Source: Candidatus Endomicrobiellum guadaloupense
GTDB lineage: Bacteria; Elusimicrobiota; Endomicrobiia; Endomicrobiales; Endomicrobiaceae
Length of the DNA stretch: 34,645 nt
NCBI GenBank assembly: GCA_031278895.1
Contig: JAITJN010000013.1
Location: forward strand, 1-34,645
Direction of reading: 5' to 3'
This document shows, one piece after another, positions 17,625-27,331 of the stretch. The position numbers were made by a program, and so were the translations under genes. Every line of letters begins with the position of its first letter. The stretch's first letter is position 1. The notes under the pieces are model-generated. The model was given only the letters and a program-made list of their open reading frames with translations, did not search any database and was not told the origin of the DNA.

Positions 17625-18083
17625 ATGAAAATTATGGATTTTTTAAGTCAGGACACAATAATTGTTGACCTGAAAGCTACGGACAAAAAGTCGGCAATTA
17701 TAGAACTGACTGAAGTTTTAAAAGATAATAAAAAAATTAAAAATAGCGAAGATTTAATAAATATTGTTTTAGAGAGAGAGAAACTTGGGTCAACAGGGAT
17801 TGGCCAAGGTGTTGCAATCCCTCATGGAAAGACTGATCTTTTGCAAGAACAAATAGGGGTTTTAGGAATTTCTCGCAAAGGGATAGAGTTTAATTCTTTA
17901 GATGGTGAACCTGTTCATATAATTTTTCTTTTAGTTGGACCTATTGAAGTTGCTGGCCAACATTTGAAAGCTCTTTCAAGAATCTCAAGATTATTCAAAG
18001 ATAAATTTTTAAGGCAAGCTATAAAAGAAGCTAAAACTACGCAAGAAGTAGTAAAGCTTATACAGCAAGAGGATGCTTATTGA
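17625..18083 (+). CDS. ptsN: PTS EIIA component, nitrogen-regulatory/fructose type
   Basis: A 152-residue EIIA of the fructose/Ntr family. The phosphorylated histidine is His67 in GVAIPHGKT, and LDGEPVHIIFLLVGP and the QHLKALSRISRLFKD block are typical. In PTS-Ntr systems this protein is a regulator rather than part of a sugar permease. With HPr and EI downstream it could receive phosphate in this organism, as it has no EINtr gene in view. An AGGAG site precedes the ATG, and its stop overlaps the ATG of hprK by one base. Confidence 0.92.
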   Translation: MKIMDFLSQDTIIVDLKATDKKSAIIELTEVLKDNKKIKNSEDLINIVLEREKLGSTGIGQGVAIPHGKTDLLQEQIGVLGISRKGIEFNSLDGEPVHIIFLLVGPIEVAGQHLKALSRISRLFKDKFLRQAIKEAKTTQEVVKLIQQEDAY

Positions 18084-19018
18084 TGAGTATAGATATAGAT
18101 GCTCTTCTTAAAGAAAAAAGTGAAGAATTCAAGTTAAAACTTTTGGCAGGGCAAGTTGGCGTCAACAGGATTATTACTGTGCCTGATATAAATAGACCTG
18201 GCCTTGCTTTAGCTGGTTTTCTAGAACATTTCCCGTATGAACGTCTTCAGGTTATGGGTATAATAGAGCACACATATTTTAATAGTTTAGATAACGACTT
18301 GCAAATAAAAGTGTTGTCTAATATTTTTTCAAATGAAAAAGCTGTTGGATGTATTTTGACTAGGAATCTAGATCCTACTGACACGATGATTAAAGTATTT
18401 TCCGATTTAGATGTACCTCTTTTGAGAACAAGTCTAAGGTCTTCTTCATTTATTGGTGATTTAAATTATTACTTAGATGCTAAGCTTGCGCCTTCAATTA
18501 AAATACATGGTGTTATAGTAAACGTTTATGGACTTGGAGTTTTAATAATAGGAAAATCTGCAATAGGAAAGTCAGAATGTGCTCTTGAGCTTGTCAAAAG
18601 AGGGCATAAGTTTATTGCAGATGATATTGTTAATATAAAAAAACTTTCTTCAGGGCGTTTTTTAATAGGAGGCGGGTTAAAGATTACAAAACATCTAATA
18701 GAAGTAAGAGGTATAGGAATTATAGATATTAAAGAACTGTTTGGTGTTGGAAATATTTTATATGAATCAAAAATAGAACTTGTTATAAAGCTTGAAGAAT
18801 GGAATCCTGTAAAAAAGTACGAAAGAATTGGCCTTGATGACTATTTTACTGAATATTTAGGGGTAAAAGTTCCTGAAGTTACAATTCCTGTTGCGCCAGG
18901 TAGAAATCTTGCTGTTCTTGTAGAAACTGCAAGTTTAAACCAAAGACTAAAAAACAGAGGTCATTTTACCGCTAGATTATTAGATTTTGAGTTACGTAAA
19001 GAAATAAACAATAAATAA
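18083..19018 (+). CDS. hprK: HPr kinase/phosphorylase
   Basis: HprK phosphorylates HPr on a serine with ATP or pyrophosphate and also reverses this, reporting metabolic state. The start ATG 18083 is preferred to a TTG three bases earlier; it gives 311 residues, the usual size. Visible are the N-terminal DRTGG-like domain, His142, the P loop GKSAIGKS (157-164), DD at 180-181, and the family signature EVRGIGIIDI (207-216). The C-terminal VPVAPGRNLAVLVE is also characteristic (here IPVAPGRN). Its likely substrate, HPr with Ser46, is encoded about 6 kb downstream in the same direction. Confidence 0.95.
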   Translation: MSIDIDALLKEKSEEFKLKLLAGQVGVNRIITVPDINRPGLALAGFLEHFPYERLQVMGIIEHTYFNSLDNDLQIKVLSNIFSNEKAVGCILTRNLDPTDTMIKVFSDLDVPLLRTSLRSSSFIGDLNYYLDAKLAPSIKIHGVIVNVYGLGVLIIGKSAIGKSECALELVKRGHKFIADDIVNIKKLSSGRFLIGGGLKITKHLIEVRGIGIIDIKELFGVGNILYESKIELVIKLEEWNPVKKYERIGLDDYFTEYLGVKVPEVTIPVAPGRNLAVLVETASLNQRLKNRGHFTARLLDFELRKEINNK

Positions 19019-19021
19019 GCT

Positions 19022-19885
19022 ATGACCAGACTATATATAATTTCAGGTATGTCAGGAGCTGGTAAAAGTCAAGCCCTCAAGATTTTTGAGGATTTTGGAT
19101 TTGTTTGCGTTGACAATATGCCAGTTCAAATGATTATAGATTTTATAGATATATCAAAGGAGTATGAAAATATTGCTGTAAGTATAGACTCCAGAGCTGG
19201 ACAACATCTTTTGGGGTTTGGAGATTTTCTTGAAGTTCTAGAAAATAAAAAAATTGACTACAAAATTATTTTCTTTAATGCATCTGACAGTATCATTCTA
19301 AGACGTTATTCAGAAACTCGTCGTCGTCACCCTAGTGGGAAATCTGTTTGTGAAGGTATAAAGCAAGAAAGAAAAATGTTGGATAATATTTTTAGTGTTG
19401 CTGATGAGATTGTTGACACTTCAAATCTTACAATAGGTGAGTTGAAAAAAGTAATTTCTGTTCTTGCAGATATCAAACAATCAGAAAAACAATATCTAAA
19501 CATTTCAGTTGTGTCTTTTGGTTATAAGTATGGTATCCCAAATGATGCTGATATAATTTATGATGTGCGTTTTATAACAAATCCTAATTATGTCCATGAA
19601 TTAAAGTATAAAACTGGACGGGATAAATCAGTTCAAAAATATATAGAAAAACAAAGAGAATTTAAAGTATTTTTTAATGAATTCTCAAAACTTATAGAAA
19701 TTACTCTTCCTGGATATATAAACGAAGGAAAAAGCTACTTAACCATTGCAATAGGCTGTAGTGGTGGACGACATAGATCTGTTTTTACATCTGAAAAACT
19801 TGTCGTTTTCCTAAAAAAGAGAAAATATAAAGTAAAGCTTATCCACAGAGATATTCTGTGGGGATATACCAATGAAAAAAACTAA
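19022..19885 (+). CDS. rapZ: RapZ/YvcJ-family nucleotide-binding regulator
   Basis: A 287-residue P-loop protein: GMSGAGKS at 9-16, an early DFGFVCVDNMP, the central SRA and RRRHP motifs and the C-terminal NPNYV and GCSGGRHRSVF blocks of RapZ. In E. coli RapZ delivers the small RNA GlmZ to RNase E and so tunes GlcN-6-P synthesis for cell wall and LPS; in Bacillus the YvcJ homologue has other roles. The RNA function cannot be assumed here. It overlaps yvcK by 14 bases, the same pairing as in Firmicutes. Confidence 0.94.
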   Translation: MTRLYIISGMSGAGKSQALKIFEDFGFVCVDNMPVQMIIDFIDISKEYENIAVSIDSRAGQHLLGFGDFLEVLENKKIDYKIIFFNASDSIILRRYSETRRRHPSGKSVCEGIKQERKMLDNIFSVADEIVDTSNLTIGELKKVISVLADIKQSEKQYLNISVVSFGYKYGIPNDADIIYDVRFITNPNYVHELKYKTGRDKSVQKYIEKQREFKVFFNEFSKLIEITLPGYINEGKSYLTIAIGCSGGRHRSVFTSEKLVVFLKKRKYKVKLIHRDILWGYTNEKN

Positions 19886-20816
19886 CATTGTTGCTATAGG
19901 AGGCGGTACAGGTCTTTCATGCTTACTTAGGGGGTTAAAAAAATATAACTATGATATAACGGCTGTAGTAAATGTCGCTGATGATGGAGGAAGTTCTGGA
20001 AAACTAAGAACGGAGCTTGGTATTTTGCCTCCTGGAGACATAAGAAGCTGTCTTGTAGCATTGTCAGAAGAAGAAAGTTTAATGTCTGAACTTTTTAAAT
20101 ACAGATTTCCTGCTAAAGGTTCTTTAAATGGTCATTCTTTTGGGAATCTTTTTTTAACTGCAATGTCTGCAGTTACTGGAGGTTTTGATAATGCAGTAAC
20201 GCATTGTGGACAAGTGCTTGCTGTAAAGGGAAGAGTTCTCCCTGTAACTCTTTCATCAATTTCGCTTGAAGCAGAATTAGATTCAGGGGAAAAAGTGAAA
20301 GGCGAACAGAAAATTTCAAAAGTTAAAAAAAAAATAAAAAAAGTATACTTAACCCCTGATTCTTCTCAAACAACGCGTGAAGTGATCTCAGCTTTTAGAC
20401 AAGCAGATGTAATAATTATTGGTCCCGGATCTCTGTATACTTCAATAATAGTTAATCTTTTGATTGGCGGTGTTGTAAGTGCTATAAAAAGATCAAAAGC
20501 ATATAAAATATATATCGGAAATATTATGACTCAGCCAGGTGAAACTCGCGATTACAAACTTTCTGATCATATAGCTGCTATAGAAAACAATTCTTATGAA
20601 AATATACTAGATTGTGCTGTGGTAAATAACAAAACTCTCCCTGAGAAACTTTTGAAAAAATACAAAAGATATGGGGCTTATCAGGTAGAAAATGATAAAA
20701 TTCGTATAAAAACCGTAAAAGCAAATTTAATTGCTGACGAGTTTTATGTAAGGCATGATAGTCAAAAGCTTGCTCGTGTTTTATCTGAAATAATTAGGGT
20801 ACATATTAAAAGATAA
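19872..20816 (+). CDS. yvcK: YvcK-family gluconeogenesis/morphogenesis factor
   Basis: A CofD-like protein of 314 residues, with GGGTGLSCLLRGL (10-22), VADDGGSSGKLR (35-46) and LPPGDIRSCLVAL. In Bacillus subtilis YvcK binds UDP-sugars and is needed for growth on gluconeogenic carbon and for cell shape. It forms an overlapping pair with rapZ and sits next to hprK, a set that is usual in Firmicutes but combined here with LPS genes. The exact substrate is unknown. A gap of 28 bases separates it from the PTS genes. Confidence 0.92.
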   Translation: MKKTNIVAIGGGTGLSCLLRGLKKYNYDITAVVNVADDGGSSGKLRTELGILPPGDIRSCLVALSEEESLMSELFKYRFPAKGSLNGHSFGNLFLTAMSAVTGGFDNAVTHCGQVLAVKGRVLPVTLSSISLEAELDSGEKVKGEQKISKVKKKIKKVYLTPDSSQTTREVISAFRQADVIIIGPGSLYTSIIVNLLIGGVVSAIKRSKAYKIYIGNIMTQPGETRDYKLSDHIAAIENNSYENILDCAVVNNKTLPEKLLKKYKRYGAYQVENDKIRIKTVKANLIADEFYVRHDSQKLARVLSEIIRVHIKR

Positions 20817-20844
20817 ATAATAAAGATCTGTTTTTGGAGTTTTT

Positions 20845-21264
20845 GTGATTAAGATTATTATCATCGCTCACTGTAGTTTAGCTAGTGAACTTGTAAAATC
20901 TGTCCAGACCATATCTGGCAAACAGTCTAATTTATATTCTATAGAACAAGGGTTAAACGATAGCTTGGAAGAGATGAAGCTTCGTATAGAAACTGCTATA
21001 AAAGATATAGATAATAAAGATGGAGCTTTGCTTCTTGTAGATATGTTTGGAGGAACTCCATGCAATGCATCAGCTCATCATATTTGTACTGATTTAAAAG
21101 TTGAAGTTATTTCTGGGGTAAATCTTCCTATGATTATTTCTGCAGTAATGTTTAGCAAAACAGATATGAGTTTATCAGAGCTAGCCAATAAAGTGCTTGA
21201 TAGAGGACAAAAAAGCATAATAAATATAAGAAATATCTTACGTAACCACCAAAGCATTAACTAA
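20845..21264 (+). CDS. PTS mannose-family EIIA component
   Basis: A 139-residue EIIA of the mannose/sorbose family. His9 in IAHCSLASEL is the phosphate acceptor, and LLLVDMFGGTPCNAS (about 62-76) is the family's hallmark. It takes phosphate from HPr and hands it to EIIB. It starts with GTG at 20845, supported by GGAG five bases upstream. EIIB follows 14 bases later, as a separate protein rather than the EIIAB fusion of E. coli ManX. Confidence 0.92.
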   Translation: MIKIIIIAHCSLASELVKSVQTISGKQSNLYSIEQGLNDSLEEMKLRIETAIKDIDNKDGALLLVDMFGGTPCNASAHHICTDLKVEVISGVNLPMIISAVMFSKTDMSLSELANKVLDRGQKSIINIRNILRNHQSIN

Positions 21265-21278
21265 TAGGAGAAGTGTAA

Positions 21279-21788
21279 ATGTCTATAGTTTTAGTTAGAA
21301 TTGATGATAGATTGGTGCATGGTCAAATAGTCCAAGGTTGGCTAAAAACAATTGATATTGATGCTATTTTAGTTGTTTCAGATTCAGCTGCAAAAGATAA
21401 AATGCAACAGACTCTAATGAAAATGGCTCTGCCGAATGCTATAAATCTTTATGTAAAAAGTCTTAAAGATGCGACCACATCGCTTAAAGGTGGATATTAT
21501 GACAAAGAAAATATTATGATATTGGCAGCACATCCATCAGACATTTTATATATGATGAATGAAGGTGTAAAGATTACTTCTTTAAATATTGGAGGAATGC
21601 ATTTTATAAATGGCAAAAAACAGCTATTTAAGAATATATGTGTTGATAATGAAGATATTAAAAATCTACATCGAATATATTCTAAAGGAGTTGAAGTAGA
21701 AAATAGAATACTTCCAGAAGACGAGAAGTCAAATGTTATGAATTTATTAGAAAAAGAATACCAGAATATTTGCGAGACTAGTAAATGA
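21279..21788 (+). CDS. PTS mannose-family EIIB component
   Basis: A 169-residue EIIB that phosphorylates the incoming sugar from a histidine. The active site is His14 in RIDDRLVHGQIVQGW, and the rest (SDSAAKDKMQQTLMKMA, then NIGGMHF) matches the family. The ribosome site AGGAG lies ahead of the ATG. Its TGA overlaps the ATG of the GH57 gene (ATGA at 21785-21788), so the two are translationally coupled. Confidence 0.93.
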   Translation: MSIVLVRIDDRLVHGQIVQGWLKTIDIDAILVVSDSAAKDKMQQTLMKMALPNAINLYVKSLKDATTSLKGGYYDKENIMILAAHPSDILYMMNEGVKITSLNIGGMHFINGKKQLFKNICVDNEDIKNLHRIYSKGVEVENRILPEDEKSNVMNLLEKEYQNICETSK

Positions 21789-23887
21789 GCAAAGTTAAAT
21801 TTATTTTCTGTACGCATAATCATCAGCCTATAGGTAATTTTGGCTGGGTTTTTGAAAAAGCCTATCGCAGTGCGTATAAACCTTTTATTGACATTATGTT
21901 AAATCATCCTAAAATAAAATGGAATATGCATGCTAGTGGAATGCTTTGGGAATATTTTGAAAAGGAACATCCTGATTATATAAAAAATGTGAAAAAACTT
22001 GTAGCTATTGGAACTCTTGAAATATTGTCTGGAGGGTACTATGAACCATTAATGGCTTCAATTCCAGATAGGGATAAATTTGCTCAGGTAACTAAACTTA
22101 ATAAATACATAAAAAAAACTTTTAATTGTAAAGAAGCAAGCGGAATTTGGCTTGCGGAAAGAGTATGGGAACCTGGCATGGCAAGAATTTTATCTGAAAG
22201 CGGTGGTCAATATACTATATTGGATGATTCTCATTTTATTGCTACAGGCGTGGATGCAACGAAGTTATACGGATATTATACTACTGAAGATGAAGGCTAT
22301 AATCTCAATATTTTCCTGATAAGCAAAAAAATGAGATATCTGATTCCTTTTGGAACGATTGAAGATATATTGGAATATTTTAGGCATCTAATAAGAGAAA
22401 ATTCTCAGACTGATCCAGTTGTAGTTATGGCTGATGACGGAGAAAAGTTTGGCATGTGGCCTACAACGTATAAACATGTTTATGACAACAAATGGCTTGA
22501 AAATTTTTTAATGGCTTTAGAACAAAATTCTGATATTGTTGAAACAACAACATTTTCAGAAATTTTAAATACAAAGAAATCTTCTGGAAGAGTATATTTG
22601 CCTTGTGCTTCATATGAAGAAATGGGCGAATGGACTTTACCTGTTGAAGAGCAGCAATCTTTTGAGAATGTTTTAGAAAGATATAAGAACGATAATGAGG
22701 CCAAGAAATTTTTGCGTGGAGGATTTTGGAGAAATTTTTTGACAAAATATGAAGAAGCTAATAACATGCATAAAAAAATGCTTTATGTAAGCGAGAAAAT
22801 TGAAAAATGTCTAAAACATGAAAAACGACATAGTCAAAAAGCTTCTAATGATCTGTATGCTGGTCAATGCAATTGCGCTTATTGGCATGGAGCTTTTGGA
22901 GGTTTGTACTTGCCACATTTAAGAAATGCCATTTATAAAATGTTGCTAAAGGCAGAAGAATTTTACAATAAAACTATGCTTAAAAAGGCGACTTGGAATG
23001 TTTTTGATTTCAATTGTGATTCCCAGGATGAATGTTTGTATGAAAGCAAGACGCAAAATATCTATATATCTCCTTCAAATGGCGGCTCAATTTTTGAGTG
23101 GGATATTTTTGAATTTCATCATAACTTACTTGATGTTTTGACAAGAAGATACGAGTCATATCATAATAAACTTAAAGATAACATAGGAAAAGTAGTTCTT
23201 ACAAATGATGCCTATTTGCAAACCCATAGCATACATGACGATTTGATAAGAGTAAAAGAAATAGGGCTTGATAAATATTTGGTTTACGATAAATATAAAA
23301 GAGCGTCATTAATAGATCATTTTTTCTCAAACAATGTAAAGTATGAAGAATGTGTATTTGGAAATTATGAAGAGAAAGGCGATTTCTTTGCTGGAGAATA
23401 CAAACATCAGATAAGGCATAACAGAAAATTCCTAAAAAAGAATTTTGTATTAAGTCTTTGCAGATATGGGAAAGTTGACGGGAAGGATGTTAAAGTTACA
23501 AAAGAAGTTGTTCCTTTTCTAAACGGATATAGTGTTAAGTATGAAATAAAAAATAATTCAAATGAAGATTTAGATATCTGCTTTGCTCCTGAACAAATTT
23601 TTGCTTTTACATCAAAAAGCGGAGATGATTCTTCAATACTGAAAAACGTTGACGAGTGGAAGAGATACGACAGCTATTTGAATATGGAAGTAAAAATTAA
23701 ATTTTCTCAAAAAAACGAAATTTTTGTGTATCCAGTTGAAACTATTTCAAATTCAGATAATGGGTTTGAGAAAACTTATCAGGGAACTGTAGTGCTTCCT
23801 ATTGTAGAATGTTTAGTTAAACAAAATGAAGTTAAAGAGTTCTCTTTTATTACAAGCGTATATTTTAAGAAGCAAAAGGAACTATAA
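21785..23887 (+). CDS. GH57-family 4-alpha-glucanotransferase/amylase-like enzyme
   Basis: A 700-residue GH57 protein with the DUF1925/DUF1926-type architecture of 4-alpha-glucanotransferases. The start HNHQPIGNFG (11-20) is the family signature. The nucleophile is Glu125 in GIWLAERVWEP, and the acid residue is one of Asp217/Asp218 in ADDGEKFGMWP. Residues after about 390 are the beta-sandwich part (SNGGSIFEWD near 455). No signal peptide, so it acts on cytoplasmic maltodextrin or glycogen. It sits between EIIB and EIIC with an ATGA overlap upstream and three bases downstream, an odd place that implies shared regulation with sugar uptake. Alpha-amylase activity is the alternative. Confidence 0.9.
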   Translation: MSKVKFIFCTHNHQPIGNFGWVFEKAYRSAYKPFIDIMLNHPKIKWNMHASGMLWEYFEKEHPDYIKNVKKLVAIGTLEILSGGYYEPLMASIPDRDKFAQVTKLNKYIKKTFNCKEASGIWLAERVWEPGMARILSESGGQYTILDDSHFIATGVDATKLYGYYTTEDEGYNLNIFLISKKMRYLIPFGTIEDILEYFRHLIRENSQTDPVVVMADDGEKFGMWPTTYKHVYDNKWLENFLMALEQNSDIVETTTFSEILNTKKSSGRVYLPCASYEEMGEWTLPVEEQQSFENVLERYKNDNEAKKFLRGGFWRNFLTKYEEANNMHKKMLYVSEKIEKCLKHEKRHSQKASNDLYAGQCNCAYWHGAFGGLYLPHLRNAIYKMLLKAEEFYNKTMLKKATWNVFDFNCDSQDECLYESKTQNIYISPSNGGSIFEWDIFEFHHNLLDVLTRRYESYHNKLKDNIGKVVLTNDAYLQTHSIHDDLIRVKEIGLDKYLVYDKYKRASLIDHFFSNNVKYEECVFGNYEEKGDFFAGEYKHQIRHNRKFLKKNFVLSLCRYGKVDGKDVKVTKEVVPFLNGYSVKYEIKNNSNEDLDICFAPEQIFAFTSKSGDDSSILKNVDEWKRYDSYLNMEVKIKFSQKNEIFVYPVETISNSDNGFEKTYQGTVVLPIVECLVKQNEVKEFSFITSVYFKKQKEL

Positions 23888-23890
23888 ACT

Positions 23891-24529
23891 GTGAGTATTT
23901 TTCTTGTTTCTTTTATTGGTGCTTTATGCAGTACAGATATAACGGCTTTTGGACAGTTTATGATTTATCGTCCGATATTTTGTGCTCCTATTGTAGGCTT
24001 TTTGGCAGGGGATATAATTACTGGCTTTTGTACTGGGATTGTTGTGGAATTATTTTGGATAAGAGCTGTCCCTATGGGAGTTTCCGTTGTTGTTGATATA
24101 TCAATGATAAGTATCCTATCTACTTTTTGGGCATGCACTTATTCCCCAGGATTAAAAGACGCTGCTATTTTAGGACTACTATTGGCAATTCCTTTCGCGT
24201 ATTTGTACAGATTTATAGATATATTAGGAAGAAAATTAAACATTAAAATAATGTATTGGGTAGAATCAGGTATTAAAGATTTTAAAAATAGATATATAGA
24301 AATTGGCATTTTGTCAAGTTTAATTCTTTTTATATTAAGAGCTTTTTTGTTTTATTTGTTTTCTGTAACAGTAGGGAGTAGATTGTTTTGCGATATTTAT
24401 GCAATACTGCCTAGTTACATTATGTCAGGTTTGGCAAAGGCTTGGTACTTGCTTCCTGTAGCTGGTTTTGGTCTAGCTTATAACTTGAGCAATATAAGAT
24501 TGTTATTTTTGAGGGATTGCGGCAAATGA
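23891..24529 (+). CDS. PTS mannose-family EIIC membrane component
   Basis: A hydrophobic 212-residue protein with about six membrane spans, matching EIIC of the mannose family: an early DITAFGQFMI, a GDIITGFCTGIVVELFWI stretch and the VPMGVSVV loop. With EIID it forms the sugar channel. It is shorter than most relatives (about 250-265), chiefly in the C-terminal half. The start is GTG at 23891 with AAGGA about ten bases upstream. Its TGA overlaps the EIID ATG. The sugar cannot be told from the sequence. Confidence 0.88.
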   Translation: MSIFLVSFIGALCSTDITAFGQFMIYRPIFCAPIVGFLAGDIITGFCTGIVVELFWIRAVPMGVSVVVDISMISILSTFWACTYSPGLKDAAILGLLLAIPFAYLYRFIDILGRKLNIKIMYWVESGIKDFKNRYIEIGILSSLILFILRAFLFYLFSVTVGSRLFCDIYAILPSYIMSGLAKAWYLLPVAGFGLAYNLSNIRLLFLRDCGK

Positions 24530-25314
24530 TTACATTGTATACTAGAGTTTTCATAAGAAGTTTTTTTCTACAATCATTATGGAATTATGAGCGAATGCAA
24601 AACATAGGGTTTGTTTTCATATTAAAGCCATTTTTTGACAAAATTTATACAGTACAAGAAAGGAAAAAGGGTGCTCTTTTAAGACATATTTCATATTTCA
24701 ATACTCAGCCTTATATGGTTGGTATAATAGTAGGTGAAGTCGTTGATATGGAAAGGAAGATATTAAAAGCAGATGATGTAAATAAACAAGATGAAATAAT
24801 ACGTGAGATGAATAGGTTTAAGAACAATATGGCAGGACCTCTTGCAGCTATAGGAGACTCTTTTTTTTATGGAGAGCTTAGACCTATGTTGTCTTTTTTG
24901 AGTATATTTATAATGATTCTGCTTACAAATAGGCACCCTGAGTATGTTATTTTAGCTCCAATTGTTTTTATAACTCTTTACAATTTAATACACTTAGGTA
25001 CAAGAATTTGTTTTATGTACGAAGGTTTTAAATATGCTGGTAAAAGTATGAAGATATTAATCCATTTTAAATCAATTTCTAATAATGTTCGTTTTTGTGT
25101 TTTCATTTTAGCTTTAGCAGCACTCTCTTTATACTTAGATGTTTTCAGTTTCAGCAATGAAGGTAAATTGTTCAATTCAGGATATGATGATTTATTTGTA
25201 TATTTTGCAGTTTTTTTATTTTCATTTTTTTCGGCAAGCAGATTTGGAGCTTTAGTTGTTATGTTTTCTGTTGTTACTATATGTATAATCCTGCCTATTC
25301 TAGGGATAAAGTAA
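24526..25314 (+). CDS. PTS mannose-family EIID membrane component
   Basis: The second membrane subunit of the mannose-type permease. The ATG at 24526 overlaps the EIIC stop (ATGA) and has GAGGGA nine bases ahead, so it is preferred to a TTG three codons earlier; this gives 262 residues. Family features are SFFLQSLWNYERMQNIGF near the N terminus, the NTQPYM motif, and AAIGDSFFYGELRP in the middle. The C-terminal part has several membrane spans. It ends in TAATG, sharing a base with the HPr start. Confidence 0.9.
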   Translation: MITLYTRVFIRSFFLQSLWNYERMQNIGFVFILKPFFDKIYTVQERKKGALLRHISYFNTQPYMVGIIVGEVVDMERKILKADDVNKQDEIIREMNRFKNNMAGPLAAIGDSFFYGELRPMLSFLSIFIMILLTNRHPEYVILAPIVFITLYNLIHLGTRICFMYEGFKYAGKSMKILIHFKSISNNVRFCVFILALAALSLYLDVFSFSNEGKLFNSGYDDLFVYFAVFLFSFFSASRFGALVVMFSVVTICIILPILGIK

Positions 25315-25577
25315 TGAAAGAAAAAATTATTATTGTTTCAAATAAAACTGGACTACATGCAAGACCTGCTGCAGATCTTGTTCAGACTCTAAGTAAATAT
25401 CAATCAGATATTAAAATTTTAAAAGATAATTTTGAAGTCGATGCTAAGAGTATTATGGGAGTTATGGCATTAGCAGCGTCTTTTGGTAGCGAATTAAAAT
25501 TTATCGCTGATGGAGCTGATGAATCTGAAGCTATTAGTGCTATAGAAGAATTATTTAGTTCAAAATTTGGCGAATAG
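25314..25577 (+). CDS. ptsH: Phosphocarrier protein HPr
   Basis: A classic 87-residue HPr that passes phosphate from EI to EIIA proteins. His15 in GLHARPA is the catalytic site and Ser46 in KSIMGVM is the HprK target; both are intact, so the protein can be used for transport and for regulation. The ATG at 25314 overlaps the EIID stop and gives the normal length; an ATG at 25281 inside EIID would add 11 residues before the domain. EI follows eight bases later. Confidence 0.95.
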   Translation: MKEKIIIVSNKTGLHARPAADLVQTLSKYQSDIKILKDNFEVDAKSIMGVMALAASFGSELKFIADGADESEAISAIEELFSSKFGE

Positions 25578-25585
25578 GAGTACCT

Positions 25586-27331
25586 ATGTTCGTTGATAAA
25601 GATATGGTATTAAAAGGATTTGCTGCTTCTTCTGGAATTGCTATAGGAAGAGTTTTCCTTCTTGAAGAAGAAGACTTTTGCTTTATACGAAAAGAAATTC
25701 CAAAAGCTTTTAGAAAAGCAGAAAAAAATCGCTTTGATGAGGCTATAGAAAAAACTAGAAACGAACTTAATGTTACATATAATAAAATTAATGATGTACT
25801 CGGAGAGAACTACGCTCATATAACAGATGTTCATCTTTTGATTCTAGATGATCCGACTTTTAAAAAAGATGTTTACAATCTTATTACTGATGGCGTTAAT
25901 GCTGAATATGCTCTTTTTAGAGTTCTTGATAAGATTATTCGCTCTTTTGAAACTATAAATGACAATTTCTTTAAGGAAAGAAAAGTTGATATACAAGATG
26001 TAGGCAAGAAAATTCTTATAAATCTCTTTGGTAAAAAAGAAAAAAATCTTACTAAATTAGATGAAGATTCCGTTATTGTCGCGCATAATTTGACCCCTGC
26101 AGATACTATATCAGTCAGAGAAAAGAAGATTGCAGGCTTTGCTACAGATATTGGAGGAAAAACTTCTCATACGGCAATCATTGCGCAGGGTCTTGCAATA
26201 CCTGCAGTGGTAGGACTAAAAAACATATCTTCATTGGTTAAAAGTGGGGAAACTATAATAGTTGATGGGGATAAAGGAGAAGTTATATTAAATCCTTCCC
26301 CAGCAACATTAATGAAATATAAAACAGAGCATGATGTACAGTTGACAAAAGCGAAAGAATTAGAAGGATTTAGAAACCTGACATCAGAAACCACTGATAA
26401 GCATAAAATTTCTATCCTTGCAAACATTGAGTATCCAGAAGAAGTACCTGTTATTTTAAATAATGGAGCTTCAGGAATTGGTCTATATAGGACAGAAATA
26501 ATATATTTCAACCGCGACTCTATTCCTACAGAGCAGGAGCATTTTGATATATATTCTAAAGTAGTAAAACAAATATATCCTTATGCTACTACAATAAGAA
26601 CGTTTGACTTGGGCGGAGATAAACTGACTAGAATGGGGGTGTTAAATATTGGAAACGAATCTAATCCGTTTCTAGGACTGAGATCTATAAGACTATGTCT
26701 TAAATATCCAGAAATATTCATAAGTCAGTTAAGGGCTATCCTAAAAGTTTCTGTTTTAGGAAAAGTAAAATTAATGTATCCAATGATTTCAGGGCTTGAC
26801 GAATTAAGAGATGCAAATGCTATTCTTGATAAAGTTAAGGAAGACTTAAAAAAAGAAAATATAAAGTTTGATGAGGACATGGAAGTTGGAACTATGATAG
26901 AAGTTCCATCAGCTGTTGCAGTTATTGACGCTATTGCAAAAGAAGTAGATTTTGTATCAATAGGAACAAATGATTTGATACAATATACACTTGCAGTTGA
27001 TAGAGTCAATGAGAATGTTGCTTATTTATACGATCCTATGAACCCTGCAATTTTGAGATTTATAAAACGTATCATTGATGAGGGGCATAAAGCTGGAATA
27101 AAAGTTGCAATGTGTGGCGAAATGGCAGGAGAATCTAAATATACTCCGCTTATTTTAGGTATGGGTCTTGATGAATTTAGTGTTTCGCCATCTCAAATTG
27201 CGACTCTAAAAAAAATAGTAAGGAATGTATCTTTTTCTGACTCCAAAACTATGGCGGATAAAGTTTTAACGTTGGAAGACAGCAAATCAATTTTGAAAGA
27301 AATTGATGCTTTTATGAAACAAGAGGGATAA
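25586..27331 (+). CDS. ptsI: Phosphoenolpyruvate-protein phosphotransferase (Enzyme I)
   Basis: EI takes phosphate from PEP and gives it to HPr, the entry step of the PTS. The 581-residue protein has the normal domain order: HPr-binding helical part, the phospho-His domain with His195 in GGKTSHTAI, then the PEP-binding barrel (TIRTFDLGGDK, then SIGTNDLIQY, and catalytic Cys in VAMCGEMAG). There is no GAF domain, so it is the sugar-type enzyme rather than EINtr (PtsP). AGGAG lies five bases before the ATG. The Nudix gene starts directly after its TAA. Confidence 0.96.
   Translation: MFVDKDMVLKGFAASSGIAIGRVFLLEEEDFCFIRKEIPKAFRKAEKNRFDEAIEKTRNELNVTYNKINDVLGENYAHITDVHLLILDDPTFKKDVYNLITDGVNAEYALFRVLDKIIRSFETINDNFFKERKVDIQDVGKKILINLFGKKEKNLTKLDEDSVIVAHNLTPADTISVREKKIAGFATDIGGKTSHTAIIAQGLAIPAVVGLKNISSLVKSGETIIVDGDKGEVILNPSPATLMKYKTEHDVQLTKAKELEGFRNLTSETTDKHKISILANIEYPEEVPVILNNGASGIGLYRTEIIYFNRDSIPTEQEHFDIYSKVVKQIYPYATTIRTFDLGGDKLTRMGVLNIGNESNPFLGLRSIRLCLKYPEIFISQLRAILKVSVLGKVKLMYPMISGLDELRDANAILDKVKEDLKKENIKFDEDMEVGTMIEVPSAVAVIDAIAKEVDFVSIGTNDLIQYTLAVDRVNENVAYLYDPMNPAILRFIKRIIDEGHKAGIKVAMCGEMAGESKYTPLILGMGLDEFSVSPSQIATLKKIVRNVSFSDSKTMADKVLTLEDSKSILKEIDAFMKQEG

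Follow-up and report, generated by a model that had tools for sequence, protein, structure and literature searches.

Why should a gene for a GH57 glycoside hydrolase lie among the subunit genes of a sugar phosphotransferase system (PTS)? The question is raised by a 34,645-nucleotide stretch of DNA (contig JAITJN010000013.1, referred to here as the window) from Candidatus Endomicrobiellum, a termite-flagellate endosymbiont, in which EIIA-EIIB-GH57-EIIC-EIID-HPr-EI form an unbroken run on the + strand (20845–27331). The source genome comprises 1.3 Mb in 66 contigs, and among named organisms its closest relatives belong to Candidatus Endomicrobiellum, whose members live as endosymbionts in termite-gut flagellates. 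An initial annotation, made from the letters of the window, had proposed that sugar uptake and storage-glucan turnover are controlled as one by this operon. On the evidence set out below, we think it probable, if some way from certain, that the GH57 protein is a maltodextrin-remodelling 4-alpha-glucanotransferase that belongs to the general PTS operon as an old member, not as a partner of the Enzyme II (EII) permease, and that it ties glycogen turnover to the PTS phosphorelay.

In a survey of 150 Elusimicrobiota genomes, in which arrangements were classed from gene coordinates, the 73 copies of this GH57 group were found, without exception, in a PTS cluster. The order EIIB-GH57-EIIC-HPr is seen in 55 copies, five of which are decayed copies in endosymbionts, and a further nine are incomplete clusters, mostly at contig ends. 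The other nine copies come from genomes without any EIIB or EIIC and lie directly before HPr, at a distance of 17–185 bp; the EII-less clusters that were fetched mostly read ptsN-hprK-rapZ-...-GH57-HPr-EI, and five of them (L115–L118 and L121) hold a mannose-type EIIA without B, C or D. Conversely, the sampled Elusimicrobiaceae, with a single exception, retain EII but lack an intact GH57. On the GH57 tree, clusters with and without EII intermingle within Elusimicrobiota, where the arrangement is mostly vertical. An arrangement that recurs in dozens of genomes is far from chance, and the splitting of the EII genes by GH57, remarked upon in the initial annotation, proves to be stable, with the same slot occupied across the phylum. 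This rules out a one-off insertion. Nor does GH57 lie elsewhere in all close relatives, as the annotation had allowed; it is carried in the same slot or is decaying there. GH57 branching enzymes and DUF4912 proteins are encoded in the same cluster in some (basal) Elusimicrobiota. A DUF4912 gene is located directly 5′ of the branching enzyme gene at L203:3932–6165, L116:8047–10619, L120:6258–8761 and L123:2854–5526, and the two, which occur as a pair both in the genome that the window comes from and in PTS clusters with and without EII, are constant partners.

That the module is lineage-specific, raised earlier as a possibility, is not supported, since the pairing spans Elusimicrobiota and occurs in at least two other phyla. 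In Hydrogenedentota, GH57-HPr-EI is found in 27 of 30 loci, 21 of these with hprK upstream, and the remaining three terminate at the 3′ end of GH57 or close to it. HPr-EI lies directly 3′ of GH57 in 19 of the 30 best Omnitrophota loci, most with ptsN and yvcK upstream. These Hydrogenedentota and Omnitrophota loci carry no genes for an EII permease. In Zixibacteria, hprK is upstream of GH57 in all five loci, two of which also have EIIA and EIIB, and HPr-EI is located elsewhere; in one locus (L078:4851–5747) the gene between EIIB and GH57 resembles, by eye, that of an MCE/MlaD-type lipid-transport protein. In Margulisbacteria and relatives the neighbours of GH57 are instead a second GH57, a GalT-like gene and a gene for a branching enzyme. 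That the pairing is kept even where the sugar transporter has gone suggests joint control of storage sugar and the sugar-sensing chain.

The link to glycogen comes from gene loss within the genus Endomicrobiellum, of which 27 genomes were sampled and glycogen synthase (GlgA) was scored by PF08323. GH57 is intact in eight of these genomes, exactly those with an intact synthase, and neither is intact in the remaining 19 (Fisher p = 4.5e-7, not corrected for kinship). Both genes are broken in two of the 19 (G070 and G118), and in the other 17 no glycogen synthase was detected and GH57 is either broken or missing; EIIB and EIIC are nevertheless retained in ten of the 19. When traced on a tree built from five operon proteins, the intact state shows five changes, at least three of them on well-supported branches, and in all three independent pairs the synthase changes in the same way as GH57, although three pairs cannot reach significance alone. 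In the nearest relative (G118), GH57 residues 114–327 have been lost with a change of frame, and EIIC and EIID are 89–91% identical to those of the window. This endosymbiont series (intact, decaying, deleted) shows that GH57 goes with glycogen, not with sugar uptake. Elsewhere in the window genome there are genes for a glycogen synthase, a phosphorylase and a branching enzyme of family GH57. In G112 (L133), EIIB, EIIC and EIID are all broken and HPr and EI are open, which represents PTS decay at a stage later than GH57 loss.

Where GH57 is missing, its place appears to be taken by a standalone GH77 enzyme (amylomaltase family), which is present in 61 genomes without an intact GH57 as against seven with one (Fisher p about 1e-15, again uncorrected for kinship) and, among Endomicrobiaceae, in 0 of 29 GH57-positive genomes. 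Two Endomicrobiaceae (G128 and G140) in which EIIB and EIIC are adjacent (gap 60–64 bp), with no GH57 remnant, both carry GH77. Overall, 111 of the 114 genomes with intact glycogen synthase have GH57 or GH77. The near-complementary presence of GH77 lends the transferase assignment support that does not depend on sequence similarity.

The assignment itself rests on a near-full-length match to the 4-alpha-glucanotransferase of Thermococcus litoralis (PDB 1k1w; E = 1.2e-121 over residues 1–669 of 700), which fixes the predicted fold, the catalytic GH57 domain being followed by an AmyA-A_glucT_m middle domain and an AmyA-gluTrfs_C C-terminal domain. Lysine at fingerprint position 23 marks 4-alpha-glucanotransferases within GH57 (PMC6037648), and the corresponding residue (K217 equivalent) is present in the window protein and in 146 of 146 aligned homologues, as are the catalytic nucleophile Glu (T. 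litoralis E123) and the acid/base Asp (D214). Of a further eight active-site positions examined, seven are kept in the window GH57 (nine of ten including the catalytic pair). The gene is under purifying selection, with a ratio of nonsynonymous to synonymous substitution rates of 0.093 in comparison with a sister species (L034); the corresponding values are 0.082 for EI and 0.13–0.25 for EIIA to EIID. The protein is therefore probably a glycogen/maltodextrin 4-alpha-glucanotransferase.

In the mechanism that we propose, the cytoplasmic GH57 enzyme would disproportionate the short chains left by glycogen phosphorylase, which could then again be phosphorolysed or extended. GH57 would be a long-standing member of the operon that encodes the general PTS phosphorelay (HprK, HPr, EI), around which the EII permease has presumably come and gone, and its co-expression with HprK, HPr and EI would tie storage-glucan turnover to the phosphorelay signal, namely phosphoenolpyruvate/pyruvate and, via HprK, energy status. 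Such regulation of GH57 by the PTS may consist of shared transcription as a minimum, or may involve HPr binding. Both HprK and an HPr with the regulatory Ser motif (KSIMG) are encoded in the cluster. Precedent for PTS control of glycogen turnover is provided by E. coli, in which HPr binds and regulates glycogen phosphorylase (PMC11046441).

A different account, also raised in the initial annotation, is that EII imports an oligosaccharide or a glucosamine-type or other amino sugar that is processed by GH57, permease and enzyme forming one catabolic unit. The location of GH57 between EIIB, which it overlaps by 4 bases, and EIIC, in a slot kept across the phylum, is what would be expected of such a unit, but GH57 persists beside HPr without EIIB or EIIC in nine genomes and in other phyla, EII persists without intact GH57 in ten endosymbionts and in Elusimicrobiaceae, and GH57 tracks glycogen synthase instead. 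Mannose-family PTS, moreover, deliver phosphorylated monosaccharides or small sugars, none of which is a known GH57 substrate. No indication was found that an oligosaccharide or glucosamine-type sugar is imported; published work describes the Endomicrobiaceae mannose-type PTS as a glucose system, glucose being the inferred substrate, that is partly lost in endosymbionts (PMC11257099; PMC8809381), with no mention of glycogen or GH57 in either paper. Because EII and GH57 are lost separately, participation of GH57 in a sugar-import unit was rejected as the main link, and we regard the import model as very improbable. Of the earlier proposal of joint control, then, the co-control of PTS state and glucan turnover fits the data and the link to sugar import does not. 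It also seems quite unlikely that the enzyme, within the same GH57 group, is an amylase-type hydrolase. We know of no characterised member of this group from these phyla, and T. litoralis Asp354 is replaced by Cys in the window GH57 and most bacterial relatives (QCNC motif), both of which favour a hydrolase; they are opposed by the full-length transferase match, the fingerprint Lys in all relatives and the complementarity with GH77 amylomaltase. Asp is found at position 354 (T. litoralis numbering) in eight of 19 PTS-linked Omnitrophota enzymes.

Two further explanations accept the glucan enzyme and differ over what its position means. GH57 may simply have been caught in an ancestral operon that is hard to break, and its location would then be inherited synteny with no regulatory meaning; the mostly vertical arrangement within Elusimicrobiota and the absence of GH57 from G128 and G140 with EII intact are consistent with this, but the cluster has often been reshuffled (EII, yvcK, branching enzymes) and yet GH57 stays by HPr-EI or hprK in several phyla, with 0 of 73 Elusimicrobiota copies outside the cluster, such that we consider the explanation possible but unlikely. 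About as tentative is the suggestion that a phosphorylated form of HPr binds and switches GH57 as it does E. coli glycogen phosphorylase (PMC11046441). GH57 and HPr are neighbours in EII-less clusters from three phyla, the cluster usually includes HprK and HPr retains its Ser motif, but one endosymbiont has a broken hprK yet keeps HPr, and an alignment comparison found no residue conserved only in PTS-linked GH57 enzymes. Given the lack of a PTS-specific residue, control through shared expression is at least as likely as HPr binding. In the endosymbiont concerned (G017; L125:6655–7336) hprK is split into several frames and HPr, EI, EIIA, EIIB, EIIC and EIID are open; the PTS can thus lose HPr kinase in these endosymbionts. 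A bolder extension, which we consider doubtful and a shade less credible than either of these, is that in Elusimicrobiota, Hydrogenedentota and Omnitrophota the general PTS has a "glycogen arm", through which HprK-HPr-EI directly controls GH57, and in some lineages branching enzymes also, and that this would be a main output in EII-less members, whose PTS would move no sugar.

Besides the Cys at position 354 and the lack of PTS-specific residues, several observations weigh against the role that we favour, in which an old member of the PTS operon ties glycogen turnover to the phosphorelay. Outside the genus there are 15 GH57-positive genomes without PF08323, some of them also without the PF00343 phosphorylase, and the glycogen link is therefore not universal as measured. 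In Myxococcota, Nitrospirota, Chloroflexota and other phyla a relative of GH57 occurs without PTS genes nearby, and the PTS-linked enzymes do not form one clade, with five changes on a tree whose backbone is weakly supported; a single origin of all PTS-linked GH57s is accordingly unsupported. Joint loss of many pathways in shrinking genomes could also mimic a functional link. Among the f12 genomes (G002, G006, G012, G015, G018, G021 and G024; L123), GH57 is present, PF08323 and PF00343 were not found, and branching enzymes are also present where looked at.

The genes of the window, identified from Pfam/NCBIfam profile matches, are listed in Table 1. The initial annotation's description of seven consecutive genes with overlaps at three junctions is confirmed by the coordinates and profile matches, and ptsN, hprK, rapZ and yvcK (17625–20816) constitute the upstream half of the same cluster, giving a full operon of 17625–27331 that may be transcribed as a single mRNA; promoter and terminator scans gave matches no more frequent than in shuffled sequence.

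Table 1. Genes of the PTS operon in the window, with the matches and motifs that identify them.
Gene	Position	Strand	Evidence and remarks
ptsN-like EIIA (PTS_EIIA_2)	17625..18083	+	PF00359, 130.8 bits
hprK, HPr kinase/phosphorylase	18080..19018	+	TIGR00679, 336.9 bits (cut-off 240); 4-base overlap with ptsN
rapZ	19022..19885	+	PF22740 and PF03668
yvcK/CofD-like	19872..20816	+	PF01933, 364.9 bits; gone from several sister endosymbionts
EIIA, mannose family	20845..21264	+	PF03610 (EIIA-man), 84 bits; His retained in AHCSLA
EIIB, mannose/sorbose family	21279..21788	+	PF03830 (PTSIIB_sorb), 164 bits; active-site motif RLVHGQ
GH57, predicted 4-alpha-glucanotransferase, 700 aa	21785..23887	+	PF03065, PF09094 and PF09095 above cut-off; 1k1w match
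EIIC, mannose/sorbose family, short (212 aa)	23891..24529	+	PF03609 (EII-Sor), 88 bits, above cut-off
EIID, mannose family	24526..25314	+	PF03613 (EIID-AGA), 126 bits; ManZ-type structures, E about 1e-23
HPr	25314..25577	+	PF00381, 101.7 bits; His motif GLHARP, Ser motif KSIMG
Enzyme I (EI)	25586..27331	+	TIGR01417, 602 bits; active-site motif GGKTSHTAI

EIIB and GH57 share an ATGA (21785–21788), as do EIIC and EIID (24526–24529) provided that EIID uses its first ATG, the start adopted here in place of a longer TTG start available at 24517; EIID and HPr meet at a TAATG (25312–25316), for which the preferred HPr start is the ATG at 25314 and not another in-frame ATG upstream at 25281. All four kinds of mannose-family permease component are encoded (EIIA, EIIB, EIIC and EIID), with the phosphorylatable His in EIIA and EIIB. 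The window EIIC aligns to residues 11–202 of the 266 of E. coli ManY, the C-terminal 50–60 residues being absent, and for most EIICs across Elusimicrobiota the match to the 233-position Pfam model extends no further than about position 200; the shortness would thus be a trait of the lineage rather than a sign of decay. In G100 (L129:6313–8338) a HindIII-like restriction endonuclease remnant and an N4/N6 DNA methylase are inserted between rapZ and EIIA, the position of yvcK in the window, and a similar-sized gap between rapZ and EIIA is found in G074 (L130).

The component parts of this system are already known, and the conserved GH57-PTS pairing provisionally appears to be new, no paper describing a GH57 inside an HprK/HPr/EI operon having been found in the open literature, with most subscription journals outside the search. 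Most of what is known about PTS control of glycogen comes from E. coli, in which the genes lie apart; in several little-studied phyla, gene order itself seems to record the same link. In some of their members the PTS consists of HPr, EI and often EIIA with no mannose-type permease, and GH57 is a concrete candidate for the output of such permease-less chains.

Comparison with known systems places the window operon close to several of them. As in the E. coli control of glycogen phosphorylase by HPr (PMC11046441), a general PTS protein may act on glycogen turnover, although the target enzyme is different and the E. coli genes, unlike those described here, are unclustered. The permease has the same EIIA, EIIB, EIIC and EIID families as E. 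coli ManXYZ (PDB 6k1h, 7dyr), with the active-site His of EIIA and EIIB, but differs in its EIIC C-terminus (shorter by about 50–60 residues), in being split by GH57 and in having its own HPr and EI in the operon. With the T. litoralis enzyme (1k1w) the window GH57 has in common its domain set, length, catalytic Glu/Asp, most substrate-site residues and the fingerprint Lys; it differs in the Cys for Asp354, in its bacterial, non-thermophilic host and in the location of its gene inside a PTS operon. Finally, the HprK-RapZ-EIIA(man)-HPr-EI cluster of Gram-negative bacteria, as in a Myxococcales genome (L138), has the same regulatory genes in the same neighbourhood but is without GH57, which in the window lies inside the cluster.

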